A stretch of DNA of 6,646 nt from an uncultured Roseateles sp. (GTDB taxonomy: Bacteria; Pseudomonadota; Gammaproteobacteria; Burkholderiales; Burkholderiaceae). The stretch is taken from positions 1 to 6,646 of the forward strand of contig CAMLKW010000233.1 in the NCBI GenBank assembly GCA_946480605.1. Reading direction: 5' to 3'. Both the position numbers and the translations under genes were made by a program. The stretch's first letter is position 1; every line of letters begins with the position of its first letter. Below, one piece after another: positions 668 through 6,646 of this stretch. A model generated the notes under the pieces. The model had not been told where the DNA came from. It saw only the letters and a program-made list of their open reading frames with translations, and ran no database searches.

Positions 668-1270
668 CTAGCCCGGCTGACCCAGCATGCCGGCGCGCAG
701 CCGCTGGTCTCTGTTCTTGTCGCCGAGAAAGACCTTCAGGAAGGCCGTGAAGAAGTCCTGCCCCTCGACGGGCTGGCCGCGCAGCTTGCCGTTCACGGTC
801 AGCACCGTGCCGCCCTGGGCGGGCAGGTAGTCGATGATGAGCGTGTCGCCCTTCTTCACGCGCCCCACCTCCGCGATGGTCGCGTTGAACTGCCGCACGC
901 GCTCGGCCACCGCCGCCAGTTCGGCATCGCTGCTGTTGCGACGCACGCCCTTGTCGATGGCCTTCACGAACTCTTGCGTGGAAACGTCCTTCACCATCGG
1001 GATGACGATGCGCAGCTCGACGCGCTTGGGGCCAGTTTGCGCATAGATGGCCTCTGGCGTGCTGGCCTTCTGCGGCAGGTAGAGCGCGGCCAGATAGGCG
1101 GAGTACTTCAAGACGAACACCTTGGCGCCGACGCCGTTGAGCTGCAGCGTGCTGCCGCCCAGCTGCAGCGTGTCGGCGAAATCCTGGCCTTCGTAGCGCA
1201 ACGCCTGAGCCGGCAACGCGGCAGTGGCGGCAGCCATGGCCAGGACATCACGACGGCGAAACAGGGTCAT
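668..1270 (-). CDS. Exported chalcone isomerase-like family protein
   Basis: This 200-residue protein belongs to the bacterial chalcone-isomerase-like family. Visible hallmarks are [23 protein letters not shown] (45-66, given here as the family's core strand-helix unit), a central [14 protein letters not shown] segment (84-97), and the C-terminal FLKVFLGDK motif (177-185). Bacterial members are not known flavonoid enzymes. Their role is unclear, and a fatty-acid or other lipophilic ligand in the periplasm is only inference from the fold. Residues 1-23 are a signal peptide ([19 protein letters not shown]) with an RRxxL twin-arginine-like core, so the product is probably periplasmic. The ATG at 1270 is supported by GGAG at 1277-1280, 6 bases away. 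The start lies inside the last 23 bases of queG, which suggests coupled expression. The gene ends with TAG, and the Bug-family gene begins 38 bases further on. Confidence 0.88.
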
Positions 1271-2402
1271 TCAATACTCCGGAACGGAACGGGTCGCACG
1301 ATAACGCGCCAGCCGCTGGCGGCGCGGACAAGGCCCATTCGATGTGCTCGGCCACCAGCGCGTCGGCGTCACGCCCCGCCCGCTGCAGCGCGGCACGCAG
1401 GTCTGCGTCGTCGCGGCGGCGCAGCGCGTTGCCGGCGGCGACGGCCAGGTTGCGCCGCCAGCGCGCGAAGCCGATGCGGCGTATCGCCGACCCCTCGGTG
1501 CGGCGCAGGAACTCGGCCTCGTCCCAGGTCAGCAGCTCGGCGATCGGCGCACCCGCCATGCCGGGGCGCACGTCAAAGTCCGCCAGCACGGCCGGCTGCG
1601 CGAACTTGTTCCACGGACAGGCCAGCTGGCAGTCGTCGCAGCCGTAGACGCGGTTGCCCAGCAGCGGGCGCAGCTCCAGCGGGATGGGCCCGTCGTGTTC
1701 GATGGTCAGATAGGAGATGCACCGCCGCGCATCGACGCGGTAGGGCGCCGTGATCGCAGCCGTGGGGCAGACATCGATGCAGGCCCGGCACTCACCGCAA
1801 TGGCCCGTCACCGGCGCCGTCGTCGGCAGCGCGAGGTCGATGAAGATCTCGCCGAGGAAGAACATCGACCCGGCCTCGCGGTGCAGCGTCAGCGTGTGCT
1901 TGCCGCGCCAGCCCAGGCCCGAGCGCGCGGCCAGCTCCACCTCCAGCACCGGTGCCGAGTCGGTGAACACGCGAAAGCCCAGCGGCCCCACGTCCGCCTG
2001 CAAGCGCTCGGCCAGCTTCTGCAGCCGCTGGCGCAACACCTTGTGATAGTCCCGGCCGCGGGCGTAGATGGAAATCTGCGCCTGCTCCGGCTTGTCCAGG
2101 CCGGTCCACTCGACGGCCTGCCAGCCAGGCTCGGTGGCCTGCGGCAGATAGTCCATGCGCGCCGTGATGACGCGCAGCGTGCCCGGCACCAGCTCCGCCG
2201 GCCGTGCCCGCTTGAGGCCGTGCGCCGCCATGTAGTGCATGCGGCCGTGGTGCCCGGCATCCAGCCAGGCCTGCAGCCCGGGCTCGGCGCTGCTGAGGTC
2301 CACATCGGCCACCGCGATCTGTGAGAATCCCAGCTCACGCGCCCAGCTGCGCAAACGCGCCAACAGCGCGGCGGTATCGACAGTGGACGGGACCTCTTGC
2401 AT
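1248..2402 (-). CDS. queG: Epoxyqueuosine reductase QueG
   Basis: QueG carries out the last step of queuosine synthesis, reducing epoxyqueuosine to queuosine at the wobble position (34) of GUN tRNAs in the cytoplasm, using cobalamin and two 4Fe-4S clusters. The 384-residue product shows the whole family layout. The N-terminal cobalamin-binding part includes YHKVLRQRL (119-127) and FTDSAPVLE (146-154), whose Asp148 matches the proposed catalytic acid. A ferredoxin-like part holds Cys202/205/208/212 in HCGECRACIDVCP and a second set at Cys228/255/258/262 (YGCDDCQLACPWNKF). A HEAT-like C-terminal segment follows (RRIGFARWRRNLAVAAGN, 308-325). Residues after about 360 form a tail with no family features; its end overlaps the next gene. 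The ATG at 2402 has no clear ribosome site and overlaps the tsaE start on the other strand. No other queuosine genes are visible. Confidence 0.97.
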   Translation of the reverse strand: MQEVPSTVDTAALLARLRSWARELGFSQIAVADVDLSSAEPGLQAWLDAGHHGRMHYMAAHGLKRARPAELVPGTLRVITARMDYLPQATEPGWQAVEWTGLDKPEQAQISIYARGRDYHKVLRQRLQKLAERLQADVGPLGFRVFTDSAPVLEVELAARSGLGWRGKHTLTLHREAGSMFFLGEIFIDLALPTTAPVTGHCGECRACIDVCPTAAITAPYRVDARRCISYLTIEHDGPIPLELRPLLGNRVYGCDDCQLACPWNKFAQPAVLADFDVRPGMAGAPIAELLTWDEAEFLRRTEGSAIRRIGFARWRRNLAVAAGNALRRRDDADLRAALQRAGRDADALVAEHIEWALSAPPAAGALSCDPFRSGVLNDPVSPS

Positions 2403-2870
2403 TTGTCTGCGATTCTAGAAACCGAGTTCCTGTGGACCGACGAGTCCGCAGCCCAGGCCTCCGCGCAACGGCTCGCGGCGGCCCTGCTCCCCTCCCCCGA
2501 CGCACTCATCGAACTGCATGGCCCGCTGGGCGCCGGCAAGACGACGTTCACGCGCCTGCTGCTGCGCGCGCTGGGCGTGGAGGGGCGCATCAAGAGCCCC
2601 AGCTACGCCGTCATGGAGAGCTACGAGCTGCCCGTGGGCGGCATGGCCAGTCACTTCGATTTCTACCGCTTCGGCGACCCGCGCGAGTGGGAGGACGCCG
2701 GCTTTCGCGACGTGTTCGCCGCGCCCGGCCTGAAGCTGTGCGAGTGGCCCGAGAAGGCCGCGGGCCAGCTACCGCCGGCCGACCTGCAGCTGTTCATCGA
2801 GCTCTTGCCTGACAACGGCCGCCGCGTGCGTGCCGTGGGCCGCCAGGTGCTGGTGGAGGCTTTGACGTGA
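2397..2870 (+). CDS. tsaE: tRNA threonylcarbamoyladenosine biosynthesis ATPase TsaE
   Basis: TsaE is the small P-loop ATPase that drives the TsaB-TsaD complex when it places threonylcarbamoyl on A37 of ANN-decoding tRNAs (t6A), an essential or near-essential cytoplasmic step. The 157-residue product has Walker A GPLGAGKTT (42-50), the switch-like IKSPSYAVMESY (65-76), the Walker B-like HFDFYRFGDP (86-95), and LCEWPEK (114-120), all in the family order and at the usual length. There is no ATG. The frame is closed upstream by TGA at 2322, and the only plausible starts are TTG at 2397 or TTG at 2403, two codons later. Neither has a strong ribosome site (GGGA at 2389-2392 is the best candidate). 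The 5' end overlaps the queG start by 6 bases on the opposite strand, and the 3' end overlaps amiC by 4 bases. Confidence 0.95.
   Translation: MHLSAILETEFLWTDESAAQASAQRLAAALLPSPDALIELHGPLGAGKTTFTRLLLRALGVEGRIKSPSYAVMESYELPVGGMASHFDFYRFGDPREWEDAGFRDVFAAPGLKLCEWPEKAAGQLPPADLQLFIELLPDNGRRVRAVGRQVLVEALT
2412..2440 (-). promoter_or_regulatory. Possible promoter for queG inside the start of tsaE
   Basis: On the minus strand TAGAAT (2417-2412) matches the sigma-70 -10 box at five of six positions and stands out in GC-rich sequence. The expected -35 position, about 17 bases upstream (near 2435-2440), reads TCGGTC and is poor. If used, transcription would begin near 2405, only about 3 bases before the queG ATG, giving an almost leaderless message. 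That would agree with the missing ribosome site. This is a weak call from one hexamer. Confidence 0.25.
2855..2859 (+). promoter_or_regulatory. Ribosome binding site fixing the GTG start of amiC
   Basis: GGAGG lies inside the last codons of tsaE, 7 bases before the GTG at 2867. The GTGA overlap, with the amiC GTG start and the tsaE TGA stop sharing bases, together with this strong site supports the non-ATG start and suggests translational coupling of the two genes. Confidence 0.7.
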
Positions 2871-4222
2871 AGCGCCGCGACGCCCTCGGCGCCCTCGCGC
2901 TGCTGCTGCAGGCCCCGCTGACGCTGGCGGCGGGCGGCCAGGCCAGCATCGTGGCCGTGCGCGTCTGGCCCGCGGCCGACTACACGCGCGTGACCATCGA
3001 GTCCGACCGGCCGCTGGCCGCCAAGCACTTCCTCGTCGACTCGCCACCCCGGCTGGTCATCGATGTCGAGGGCCTGCAGCTGAGCCCGGGGCTGAAGGAG
3101 CTGATCGGCAAGGTCAGGGCCGACGACCCCTACATCGCCGGCGTGCGCGTGGGCCAGAACACGCCCACCGTCGTGCGCCTCGTGCTGGACCTGAAGCAGC
3201 CCGCCGCCCCGCAGGTGTTCACGCTGGCGCCGGTGGCGGCCTACAAGCACCGGCTGGTGCTGGACCTGCATCCCAGCGTGGAGGCCGACCCGCTGGTGGC
3301 GCTGGCCCAGGAGCACAACAAGCCGCCCACCGCCGCGCGCCGGGCCGAGTCTGCAGCCAGCGCCGTCAACGATGCGCTGGAGGAGCTGATCCAGAAGATC
3401 GAGCGCCCGCCCGAGCCCTCGGCGCCGCCGCCCGCCGCCCCCCCCGTGGCCGCGGCGCCCAAGCCCGCCCCCGAACCCAAGCCTGCGACGGCGGCGATGG
3501 ACCGCCTCATCGTCATCGCGCTGGACCCCGGCCACGGCGGCGAAGACCCCGGCGCCGTCGGCCCCACGGGCCTGAAGGAGAAGGACGTCGTGCTGGCGGT
3601 GGGTCTGAAGCTGCGCGACCGACTCCAGACCAACCCCAACATCCGCGTGCTGATGACGCGCGACAAGGACTTCTTCGTGCCGCTGCAGGACCGCGTGCGC
3701 AAGGCGCGGCGCGTGCAGGCCGACCTGTTCGTGTCCATCCACGCCGACGCCTTCATCAACCGCCAGGCGCGCGGCGCCTCGGTGTTCGCGCTCAGCGACG
3801 GCGCCGCCACCAGCGCCGCCGCGCGCTGGATGGCCAACAAGGAGAACGCGGCCGACATGGTGGGTGGCGTCAACGTCGGTGCGGCCACCAAGGATGCCAA
3901 CGTGCTGCGCGCCCTGCTGGACATGAGCACCACCGCCCAGATCAAGGACAGCTTGAAGCTGGGCAAGGAGGTGCTGGGCCAGATCGGCAAGGTGGGCCGG
4001 CTGCACAAGCCGCGCGTGGAACAGGCCGGCTTCGCGGTGCTGAAGGCGCCCGACATCCCCAGCATCCTGGTCGAGACGGCCTTCATCTCCAACCCCGAGG
4101 AGGAGAAGAAGCTGCGCGACCCGGACTACCAGGACGAACTGGTGGATGCGCTGGCGGCCGGCATCGCGAGGTACTTTGCCAGGAACCCGCCGATGGCGAG
4201 AAAGCGCAGCACGACGCTTTAG
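2867..4222 (+). CDS. amiC: N-acetylmuramoyl-L-alanine amidase AmiC-type, AMIN plus Amidase_3
   Basis: This periplasmic zinc amidase cleaves the bond between N-acetylmuramic acid and the peptide stem in peptidoglycan and acts in daughter-cell separation. Residues 1-22 are a signal peptide beginning MKRRDAL, which is twin-arginine-like; E. coli AmiA and AmiC use the Tat pathway. An AMIN domain that targets the septum follows (about 27-135), then a helical and Pro/Ala-rich linker (about 150-210). The Amidase_3 catalytic domain spans about 213-438. Visible zinc and catalytic residues are His223 in DPGHGGEDPGA, Glu238 in LKEKD, His292 in SIHAD, and Glu403 in LVETAFISN. All are present, so the enzyme should be active. 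Length (451) is normal. Activity in this family is usually controlled by EnvC/NlpD-type LytM proteins docking on the helix that blocks the active site, here probably about 325-375. It is coupled to tsaE by GTGA. mutL, which commonly follows, is absent. Confidence 0.95.
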   Translation: MKRRDALGALALLLQAPLTLAAGGQASIVAVRVWPAADYTRVTIESDRPLAAKHFLVDSPPRLVIDVEGLQLSPGLKELIGKVRADDPYIAGVRVGQNTPTVVRLVLDLKQPAAPQVFTLAPVAAYKHRLVLDLHPSVEADPLVALAQEHNKPPTAARRAESAASAVNDALEELIQKIERPPEPSAPPPAAPPVAAAPKPAPEPKPATAAMDRLIVIALDPGHGGEDPGAVGPTGLKEKDVVLAVGLKLRDRLQTNPNIRVLMTRDKDFFVPLQDRVRKARRVQADLFVSIHADAFINRQARGASVFALSDGAATSAAARWMANKENAADMVGGVNVGAATKDANVLRALLDMSTTAQIKDSLKLGKEVLGQIGKVGRLHKPRVEQAGFAVLKAPDIPSILVETAFISNPEEEKKLRDPDYQDELVDALAAGIARYFARNPPMARKRSTTL

Positions 4223-5046
4223 GGCCTGCGCCCGGTCACGAGCGTGAAGGTCTGCATGTAGTGAAAGTCGGGCCGACGCAGCGCGAAGGCCGGACTGTCG
4301 GGATCGCACAGCTGCTCCAGCACGCGGAAGTCCTGCTCGGACAGCCAGGGCCTGAGCCGCTCGCCAAAGGTCGAGCGGAACTGCGCCTCCAGCACGTACT
4401 CGTGCGCCGCCGCGTCCAGCGGCGAGATGCGCTCGATGACGAAGGTGCGGACCTGCACCTCGGCGAGCCCGGCCTGCCGCAGCAGCCCGACGTTGGCCCG
4501 CACCGCCGCGAGCCGCTGCTCGTCCAGGCCGTAGCGATCGCGGTAGTAGGCCCGGACGGCGTCCACGACCGCCCGCTCCAGCCGCGAATCCCAGGCGAAC
4601 AGCATCTCCGGCAGGAAGCCGCTCTGCCCCACCGCCAGCCGTCCGCCCGGGCGCAGCCAGCCCGCGAGGCGGCGCACGGCGCCCAGCGGATCGGCGAAAT
4701 GGTTGACCGTGTTGGTTGACCAGATCGCATCCAGACCGGCGGCCGGCATGTCCAGCTCCATGAGGTCAGCGGCGTGCAGCTCCACCGCCGCGGGCGCCTG
4801 GCGCCGCGCGGCCTCCAGGTGCGGCTCCGACAGGTCCGCGCCGATGACCCGGCCCGCCGGCCCCACCGCCTGCGCCAGCCAGGCCAGCGCCTCGCCGCTG
4901 CCGCAGCCCGCGTCCAGCACCTGCATGCCGGGCTGCAGTGCCAGCGTGTCCAGCGCCGCGCGCAGCTCCGGCTCCGCGAAGCGCATGAACAGGCCCAGCT
5001 TGCGCGAGTAGTCGCGCTGCGCCGTGTCACCCAACAAACCCGCCAT
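4219..5046 (-). CDS. Class I SAM-dependent methyltransferase, substrate unknown
   Basis: This 275-residue protein has the Rossmann-type SAM-binding core. Counting from the chosen ATG, motif I VLDAGCGSGEA is at 43-53, the acidic end of strand 2 is Asp71 (IGADLSEPHLEAA), AADLMELDMP (92-101) follows motif II, IWSTNTVNHFADP (108-120) forms strand 4, and LRPGGRLAVGQSGFL (131-145) follows. The C-terminal 120 residues, rich in Arg, Tyr and Leu, are probably a substrate lid and do not name a substrate. An extra in-frame GTG at 5049 is possible, but GGAGG at 5053-5057 is 6 bases from the ATG at 5046 and only 3 from the GTG, so I chose the ATG. The upstream oxygenase stop shares one base with this start (TGATG), a coupling arrangement. 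The 3' end overlaps the convergent amiC by 4 bases. A small-molecule methyltransferase is likelier than a nucleic-acid one, by inference only. Confidence 0.88.
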   Translation of the reverse strand: MAGLLGDTAQRDYSRKLGLFMRFAEPELRAALDTLALQPGMQVLDAGCGSGEALAWLAQAVGPAGRVIGADLSEPHLEAARRQAPAAVELHAADLMELDMPAAGLDAIWSTNTVNHFADPLGAVRRLAGWLRPGGRLAVGQSGFLPEMLFAWDSRLERAVVDAVRAYYRDRYGLDEQRLAAVRANVGLLRQAGLAEVQVRTFVIERISPLDAAAHEYVLEAQFRSTFGERLRPWLSEQDFRVLEQLCDPDSPAFALRRPDFHYMQTFTLVTGRRP

Positions 5047-5759
5047 CACAAGCCTCCCTGTCCCGGTCGCTTCCTCGCATCAGGCGAGCACCATGCCAGT
5101 CCGTAGGGCAGCGTCGCTGGCCCGAACAGGAAGTGCAGCACACGCCGGCGCCCCAGGGCCTCGGTGGCCTTGGACGACGCGTGCAGCACCAGCGGCCGCA
5201 TCAGCAGCGCGTCGCCTGCGCGGGCATCGGCGGCGACCTCGCCGGCCTGCTCGCGCCAGCGGCGGGCGTCGGCCTCGTCCAGCACGCCCGCACGGTGCGA
5301 GCCCGGCACGAAGCGCAGGCCACCGTCGACCTCGGTCGCGTCGTCCAGGTGCAGCCGCAGCGCCACCAGTTGCGCCAGCAGCTCGGCCGGCGCCAGCACG
5401 AAATGCTGGCCGCCCTTGACGGACCAGGCCGTCAGCGCCGGGTGCTCCACGCGCGCCGCGACCGGGATGGCCAGGTCCTGGTGCGGCGAGACCAGCCAGT
5501 TCCGCTCGGTCGACTTCTCGAACAGCGTGCATTGCACCGCCACCGCGTCGGGCGGCAGGTAGGGGCGCAGCACCGGCAACGCCAGCAGCTCGCGCGCCAG
5601 CGCCTGGCACCAGGGCTGCTGCAGCAGCTCGCGCTGGCCCGCGGTGCCGGCAGGCAGTTCGCCGAGCCGGGCGCTCAGCCGTTCGCACTGCGCCGGGGCC
5701 AGCAGGCCCGGCAGCAGCAAGTAGCCTTCAGGGAGGGCATCGTCGTTCAGAGCCGGCAT
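5046..5759 (-). CDS. Phytanoyl-CoA dioxygenase (PhyH)-like Fe(II)/2-oxoglutarate oxygenase
   Basis: The 237-residue product resembles the PhyH family of non-haem iron oxygenases, which hydroxylate small molecules using 2-oxoglutarate and O2. The iron triad is visible: His93 and Asp95 in SPHQDLAIPV, and His193 in RPLVLHASSKA. Arg204, 11 residues after the distal His, is placed where PhyH enzymes bind the 2-oxoglutarate carboxylate. FVPGSHRAG (150-158) is the usual strand before the distal His. The N-terminus (DALPEGYLLLPGLLAPAQCERL) is the typical PhyH opening, so the ATG at 5759 fits, although its ribosome site is weak. Length is at the short end of the family. It starts 21 bases after ybdD on the same strand and is coupled to the downstream methyltransferase, so the two may act on one substrate. 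That substrate cannot be read from the sequence. Confidence 0.88.
   Translation of the reverse strand: MPALNDDALPEGYLLLPGLLAPAQCERLSARLGELPAGTAGQRELLQQPWCQALARELLALPVLRPYLPPDAVAVQCTLFEKSTERNWLVSPHQDLAIPVAARVEHPALTAWSVKGGQHFVLAPAELLAQLVALRLHLDDATEVDGGLRFVPGSHRAGVLDEADARRWREQAGEVAADARAGDALLMRPLVLHASSKATEALGRRRVLHFLFGPATLPYGLAWCSPDARKRPGQGGL
5053..5057 (-). promoter_or_regulatory. Ribosome binding site choosing the methyltransferase ATG
   Basis: AGGGAGG (5053-5059 read on the minus strand) is one of the strongest ribosome sites in the window. It lies in the last codons of the oxygenase gene, 6 bases before the ATG at 5046, and favours that start over the GTG at 5049. Confidence 0.65.
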
Positions 5760-5780: not shown

Positions 5781-5984
5781 TCAGCAACATTTCCCGACGC
5801 GCGCGCTGTAGCGCGCCGCCTGCCTCTCCCTGAAGAACTCTTCATACGTCATCGGCTCGCGGTCCGGGTGCGTGGCGCGGTGGTGGGCCAGGTAGCTGCC
5901 GTAGTCCGGCACGCCCACCATCAGGCGCAGACTCTGCGTCAGATACCGGCCCGCCTGGGCCAGATCGCGGCGCAGCTCACGCAT
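5781..5984 (-). CDS. ybdD: YbdD/YjiX family small protein, CstA partner
   Basis: This 67-residue protein is of the YbdD/YjiX family (DUF466, also named Sel_put). It has the diagnostic LRLMVGVPDYGSYLAHHRATHP (19-40, key VGVPDY and HHxxxHP), then MTYEEFFRERQAARY (45-59) and a terminal Cys-Cys. In E. coli the homologues follow the peptide/pyruvate transporters CstA and BtsT (YjiA-YjiX-YjiY cluster) and are thought to assist them. The exact role is not settled. Its ATG at 5984 overlaps the last 8 bases of the upstream CstA-derived frame, the normal cstA-ybdD coupling. The protein appears intact even though the CstA part upstream lacks most of its length. The TGA stop after the two cysteines is the ordinary end of the family. 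Confidence 0.93.
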   Translation of the reverse strand: MRELRRDLAQAGRYLTQSLRLMVGVPDYGSYLAHHRATHPDREPMTYEEFFRERQAARYSARVGKCC

Positions 5985-6646
5985 GCTGGCCCGCCGGCAG
6001 CAGCACGAAGGCCGTCTCCTGCGCCGTGACCTTGGCCGTGCGGCGCGCGGCCACGATGGTCTTGACGCTGTAGATCAGCACGCTGATGACCACGCCCATG
6101 AACAGCGCGCACAGCGCGGCGTCCAGGCGGTCGTTGAAGACCACACGCTCCATCGCCTCCAGCGACTTGGCCGGCGCCAGCACCTCGCCGCGGGCGATGG
6201 CGCCGGCGTACTTGTCGGCATGGGCCAGGAAGCCCAGCTTGGGGTCGCTGGAGAAGATCTTCAGCCAGCCGGCCGTCATCGTGCAGACCAGCAGCCAGGC
6301 CGCCGGCAGCGCGGTGACCCAGGCGTAGCGGTCCTTCTTCATCTTGAAGAGCACGACGGTGCCGAGCATCAGCGGACCGAGCGCCTTCACCGCCTCGCCC
6401 CACACGGGATCGCCGGCCACCAGCTTGCGCACGTCGGCGCGCGCCTGCAGTTCGGGGTAGCCCCACATGTGATAGACGGTGTTGAGCGCCCCGAGCTCGG
6501 AGGACCACACGCCGACCGGCTTCGAGTACTTCGTCCGCGCGGAGAGCCCCTTGCCGAAGATCGACATCCACTCACCGACCTTGCCGGGATAGAGCTTGTA
6601 GTAACGCAGCTCGTAGACGCCGTTGCCCGAGGCCGGCGTGAACGGC
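5977..6646 (-). CDS. NIPSNAP domain fused in frame to the C-terminal part of CstA; 5' end beyond window
   Basis: The frame is open from the right edge (222 complete codons visible), so the ATG at 6567 is internal and not the likely start. The first visible residues (PFTPASGNGVYELRYYKLYP, then GKVGEW) and the following KPVGVWSSELGALNTVYHMWGY and ADVRKLVAGDPVW are a NIPSNAP domain, a soluble ferredoxin-like fold of poorly known function; the lead-in suggests the second of two such domains. At about 6365-6390 the text changes to the C-terminal end of CstA: LMLGTVVLFKMKKDRYAWVT, a GFLAHADKYAGAIARGEVLAPAKS loop, VVFNDRLDAALCALFMGVV, and a tail ending in KETP-like AQETAF. This part has about three membrane segments out of the many in full CstA (roughly 690 residues). 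Transport function cannot survive. The chimera could be a deletion scar or an assembly join. It overlaps ybdD by 8 bases. Domain calls are from recognition, not a search. Confidence 0.85.
   Translation of the reverse strand, partial: PFTPASGNGVYELRYYKLYPGKVGEWMSIFGKGLSARTKYSKPVGVWSSELGALNTVYHMWGYPELQARADVRKLVAGDPVWGEAVKALGPLMLGTVVLFKMKKDRYAWVTALPAAWLLVCTMTAGWLKIFSSDPKLGFLAHADKYAGAIARGEVLAPAKSLEAMERVVFNDRLDAALCALFMGVVISVLIYSVKTIVAARRTAKVTAQETAFVLLPAGQHA
6365..6390 (-). other. Junction between NIPSNAP-derived and CstA-derived sequence
   Basis: Reading on the minus strand, NIPSNAP similarity ends around GDPVWGEAVK and CstA similarity begins at about LMLGTVV, so the breakpoint lies in or beside the short KALGP stretch. 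No inverted repeat, insertion-sequence end or obvious direct repeat is visible within the window at this spot. The frame is kept across the junction with no stop codon. Confidence 0.7.

Follow-up and report, generated by a model that had tools for sequence, protein, structure and literature searches.

According to a published study of E. coli (PMC5847655), CstA and YbdD import pyruvate together and form a constitutive pyruvate transporter. The NIPSNAP family is represented here by P0001, a protein of 211 residues with two NIPSNAP domains, the second of which forms its end and covers positions 1-102 of the Pfam profile; the solved NIPSNAP relatives found by sequence (5ixu, 5kak, 1vqy, 5k9f, 2ap6, and 1vqs) are chains of 112-126 residues. 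A sequence search found no solved relative of CstA.

These two families meet at one end of the 6,646-nucleotide stretch of DNA analyzed here (the window), where positions 5977-6645 of the minus strand hold one open frame of 222 codons, with its first stop at 5977 and its start beyond the window end. Codons 1-94 correspond to the second domain of the double-NIPSNAP protein (95% identical to P0001, with five differences between fused-frame residues 1-94 and P0001 residues 102-195), and from codons 92-95 onward the frame follows the last 129 residues of CstA, with identity up to 92%. An earlier note, made from the letters of the window, had described an in-frame NIPSNAP-CstA chimera without a stop, built from halves of unrelated families; the frame is indeed open, and its halves match two separate Pfam families, NIPSNAP (PF07978; residues 11-92, E 1.5e-20) and the end of CstA (PF02554; residues 80-125, E 1.5e-6). 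The NIPSNAP domain placed before CstA is likewise present, but it represents just one of two domains, the second, and the last 16 residues of a P0001-type protein are absent; with the match confined to profile positions 1-84 of 102, the domain is incomplete.

The CstA half is close to its counterparts in relatives. Fused-frame residues 94-222 are 92% identical to residues 559-687 of the CstA protein P0265 (Roseateles sp. DC23W according to its source), which agrees with the last ~130 residues claimed beforehand, and amino acid identity to the 30 best-scoring proteins is 85-92%. The Pfam match spans profile positions 513-560 of 560 and scores 27.7 bits against a cut-off of 27, as a C-terminal CstA sequence should; the NCBIfam CstA model matches residues 58-218 (E 2.1e-40) with 138.9 bits, under its whole-protein cut-off of 1188, below which the full-length P0265 (1091.1) also falls. 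The window does not encode a full CstA transporter, which would have ~690 residues and include the membrane core; it holds only residues ~559-687; the ~558 codons that should precede them (the earlier note had estimated ~550) are missing upstream of the tail, and NIPSNAP stands in their place. Of the last three hydropathy peaks of CstA, two are whole, as far as the earlier count of about three helices holds, but the third is cut at the join, so that this count was slightly generous; in the window itself, one of the three peaks exceeds 1.6.

Table 1. Features of the window discussed in the text
Feature	Position	Strand	Evidence and remarks
queG	1248..2402	-	frequent neighbour of the cstA-ybdD block; 15 of the 18 closest loci
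tsaE	2397-2870	+	frequent neighbour of cstA-ybdD
amiC-like amidase	2867-4222	+	frequent neighbour of cstA-ybdD
Class I SAM methyltransferase gene	4219-5049	-	between PhyH and amiC
PhyH-family dioxygenase	5046..5759	-	PF05721, E 3.1e-19; same position in 4 of the 18 closest loci
ybdD (Sel_put)	5781..5984	-	PF04328, E 6.2e-27; overlaps the cstA stop by 8 nt
cstA tail (pyruvate transporter family), last ~130 codons and stop	5977..6372	-	92% to P0265; end of PF02554
Join zone	6361..6375	-	codons 91-95, P-L-M-L-G; a word of ~10-13 nt could be common to both parents
Partial NIPSNAP gene (domain 2 of the 211-residue double-NIPSNAP protein)	6373..6645	-	PF07978; 5' end off the window

From the cstA tail onward, the gene order in the window is that of Roseateles/Pelomonas. 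We compared it with 80 cstA loci of relatives, of which L001-L018 are the 18 closest and L001-L050 enter the gene-order table. Directly downstream of cstA lies ybdD, in the window as in all 18 of the closest loci, and it is the native downstream partner of cstA. The block amiC-tsaE-queG comes after cstA-ybdD in 15 of these 18 loci; in the remaining three (L001, L003, and L008), ybdD follows cstA but amiC-tsaE-queG is missing from the fetched stretch. The neighbourhood of cstA is thus common but not fixed. At E<=1e-8, a search of the 18 closest loci gave no homologue of the SAM methyltransferase. In each of the 80 loci, a single unbroken alignment covers 659 or more residues of CstA. Two side observations belong here: YbdD ends in Lys-Cys-Cys and matches the NCBIfam KCU-star selenoprotein family below threshold (60 bits against a cut-off of 85), and by its sequence it may be a cysteine-containing counterpart in a family that also has a selenocysteine member; and L058 lies on a contig labelled Tolypothrix campylonemoides, a cyanobacterium, while its CstA ranks among those of Lysobacter and Luteimonas, so this locus may be a contamination of that assembly.

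The join itself is sharp. Protein alignments place it in codons 91-95, because it is there that the residues switch partner: the window reads ALGPLML-GTVVLFK, P0001 reads ALGPLML-EMSAKI, and P0265 reads AVALLL-GTVVLFK. At the DNA level, the window is 0.80-0.89 identical after the join to the cstA of 17 among the 18 closest loci, and 0.36-0.40 identical over the preceding 90 nt (L012 was left out of this comparison). The sharp change that had been noticed near 6365-6390 overlaps the measured interval of 6361-6375. At this place, 28 of 37 relatives have the cstA word CGCTG[CA]TGCT[CG]GGC, and the window has CGCTGATGCTCGGC; read from the cstA side alone, 10-13 nt of it could be common with the NIPSNAP parent. 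Within 5900-6646 there are no direct repeats of at least 14 nt, and neither of the two inverted repeat pairs lies at the join. The NIPSNAP-derived stretch occupies ~270-280 bp at the extreme end of the window, and genes are cut at both window ends.

To place the NIPSNAP half, we searched the relatives at several depths. None of the 80 cstA loci has a NIPSNAP match at E<=0.01 within the fetched stretch, which reaches at least 4 kb before cstA in 72 of the 80 and less in the others (median ~4.4 kb); since this stretch is limited, a NIPSNAP farther upstream would escape the locus comparison, and genome searches cover that case. Among 18 relative genomes there is no close homologue of the window NIPSNAP, only five having any match at E<=0.001 (best 37%). 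Nor did wider samples, drawn evenly and partly overlapping, contain one: at the level of the family, 72 of 299 genomes match at E<=0.001 (best 48% over 77 residues); of the order, 12 of 399 at E<=1e-30 (identity 34-36%); and of the phylum, 3 of 398 at E<=1e-40 (identity 40-42%), the latter two cut-offs being ones that a full-length match of 60% should still pass. Among 5.8 billion proteins, the NIPSNAP family consists mostly of metagenome proteins without an organism name; 6 of the 120 listed homologues have one, with 47-65% identity, and all come from metagenome-assembled genomes labelled Vicinamibacteria, Rokubacteria, Limnocylindrales, Methylomirabilia, and Methylomirabilota, labels that can be wrong. 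All 303 plasmid records with a match stay below 60% identity, and the viral contigs scanned contained no NIPSNAP-family relative. As far as sampled, the NIPSNAP side thus appears alien to the Roseateles/Pelomonas lineage; since no owner of this NIPSNAP emerged from the searches and only few of its relatives carry a name, it may nevertheless be an accessory gene of the same genome.

Composition does not separate the two halves. The codon usage of the NIPSNAP half has a z of -0.29 under a model from the relatives' genes, with 35% of 207 control chunks as low or lower, and of -0.77 when the model is built from the genes of the window, whose own chunks range from -2.91 to 2.41; its GC3 is 0.92 against 0.88-0.98. 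Leucine CTC rather than CTG is used in 5 of 8 cases in the NIPSNAP half versus 29 of 228 (p 0.002), a comparison that was chosen after the fact and is uncorrected. Codon usage and GC3 give no support for a foreign NIPSNAP half and do not discriminate between the readings; they are not decisive.

We also looked for a second protein of this architecture. A search with the fused query gave 736 matches among 5.8 billion proteins, with candidates of 0.55 to 1.75 times the query length, a range wide enough for a fusion of ~320 residues. Any true fusion would be expected at the top of such a search; among the best 120 of the 736 matches, the top match covers one half only. When the 333 proteins listed from the searches (the best 120 of each) were tested half by half, 120 contained the N half only, 213 the C half only, and none both; a coverage of up to 80% in some CstA matches reflects CstA alignments running weakly into the other half. 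The same architecture in an independent sequence was therefore absent from these 333 proteins, which is the result of the database check that the earlier note had proposed. A literature search found no paper pairing NIPSNAP with 'carbon starvation protein'. A joint protein alignment of both families for fold prediction looked unusable, its NIPSNAP rows being 20-odd percent identical to the query.

Three ways in which the frame could be genuine have to be set against these results. A NIPSNAP family that regularly carries the CstA-like tail is practically out of the question: P0001 ends with its second NIPSNAP domain, the listed homologues at least 60% identical over its whole length have 211-228 residues with NIPSNAP as their sole precomputed domain, and none of the six homologues that were aligned with the window has a membrane tail at its end. 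A new functional fused gene, making a membrane-anchored NIPSNAP protein, would account for the open frame, the in-frame join, and the ybdD kept downstream; against it stand the lack of a second example among the 333 proteins listed from searches of 5.8 billion, a NIPSNAP profile that stops at 84 of 102, and a join that falls inside a CstA hydropathy peak, and we regard it as highly improbable. To judge from its sequence, the fused protein, if real, would probably not work, because the NIPSNAP part is without its last 16 residues and the CstA part without the transporter core. We give equally little credence to the special case of a very recent recombination in one Roseateles-like strain that set a NIPSNAP from a distant lineage before the last two CstA helices, yielding an expressed, membrane-tethered NIPSNAP in place of the pyruvate transporter.

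A non-functional scar in a real genome is a more serious candidate, although still an unlikely one. A horizontally acquired NIPSNAP gene would have been located upstream of cstA, or a rearrangement would have carried it there, and recombination at a short shared word would then have removed ~558 cstA codons and left a frame that is open but of no use. Such an event fits with a short word that the parents may share at the join, with codon usage and GC3 that a single genome could show, and with the state of the two halves, each truncated as a dead remnant would be (NIPSNAP by its last 16 residues, CstA by most of its length). The earlier note had taken a deletion as the simplest reading, and little speaks for a simple one, because it needs a NIPSNAP upstream of cstA on the same strand and none is so placed in the relatives: no NIPSNAP lies near cstA in the 80 loci, a comparison that the earlier note had proposed in order to see whether the two are separate neighbours there, and identity in the 18 relative genomes reaches at most 37%. 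The event would also have to be very recent, because the cstA tail is still at an ordinary distance from its relatives. Were the join real, a foreign gene would recently have cost the organism a pyruvate transporter.

Of the three options in the earlier note (a deletion scar, a new fused gene, or an assembly join), an assembly or library join fits best. We consider it likely that the window ends in a chimeric contig end, a technical join of two organisms' DNA, and that there is probably no new gene. The window would then be a metagenome contig that probably stems from a Roseateles/Pelomonas relative (Burkholderiales), with the last ~270-280 bases being another organism's DNA that a library or assembly error attached within cstA, perhaps through a short shared word. 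Because assembler k-mers are usually longer than ~10-13 nt, a word of this length is easier to reconcile with a library chimera, or with genuine illegitimate recombination, than with a pure k-mer error. That the fused frame is open would be chance: one random join in three preserves the frame, and the two parents are both coding DNA rich in GC. The cstA of the real genome is most likely an ordinary gene of ~687 codons that extends further upstream and is followed by ybdD. If the join is chimeric, an intact cstA is to be expected in the source organism, and databases should not take up the fused protein, nor any 'NIPSNAP-CstA' architecture based on it.

Set beside the known systems, the window shares with E. 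coli CstA/YbdD the C-terminus of CstA and the overlapping ybdD after it, and differs in that ~558 N-terminal codons are missing and NIPSNAP is found instead. With the 211-residue double-domain NIPSNAP protein it has in common 94 residues around the second domain, with only the five differences given above; it differs in that the first domain would lie beyond the window and the last 16 residues are absent. Chimeric contig ends typically look like this, with a little foreign DNA at the extremity of a fragment whose two ends both interrupt genes, and the window resembles chimeric metagenome contigs in its short alien end, in an architecture not seen elsewhere, and in two lineages that are apparently joined at one point.
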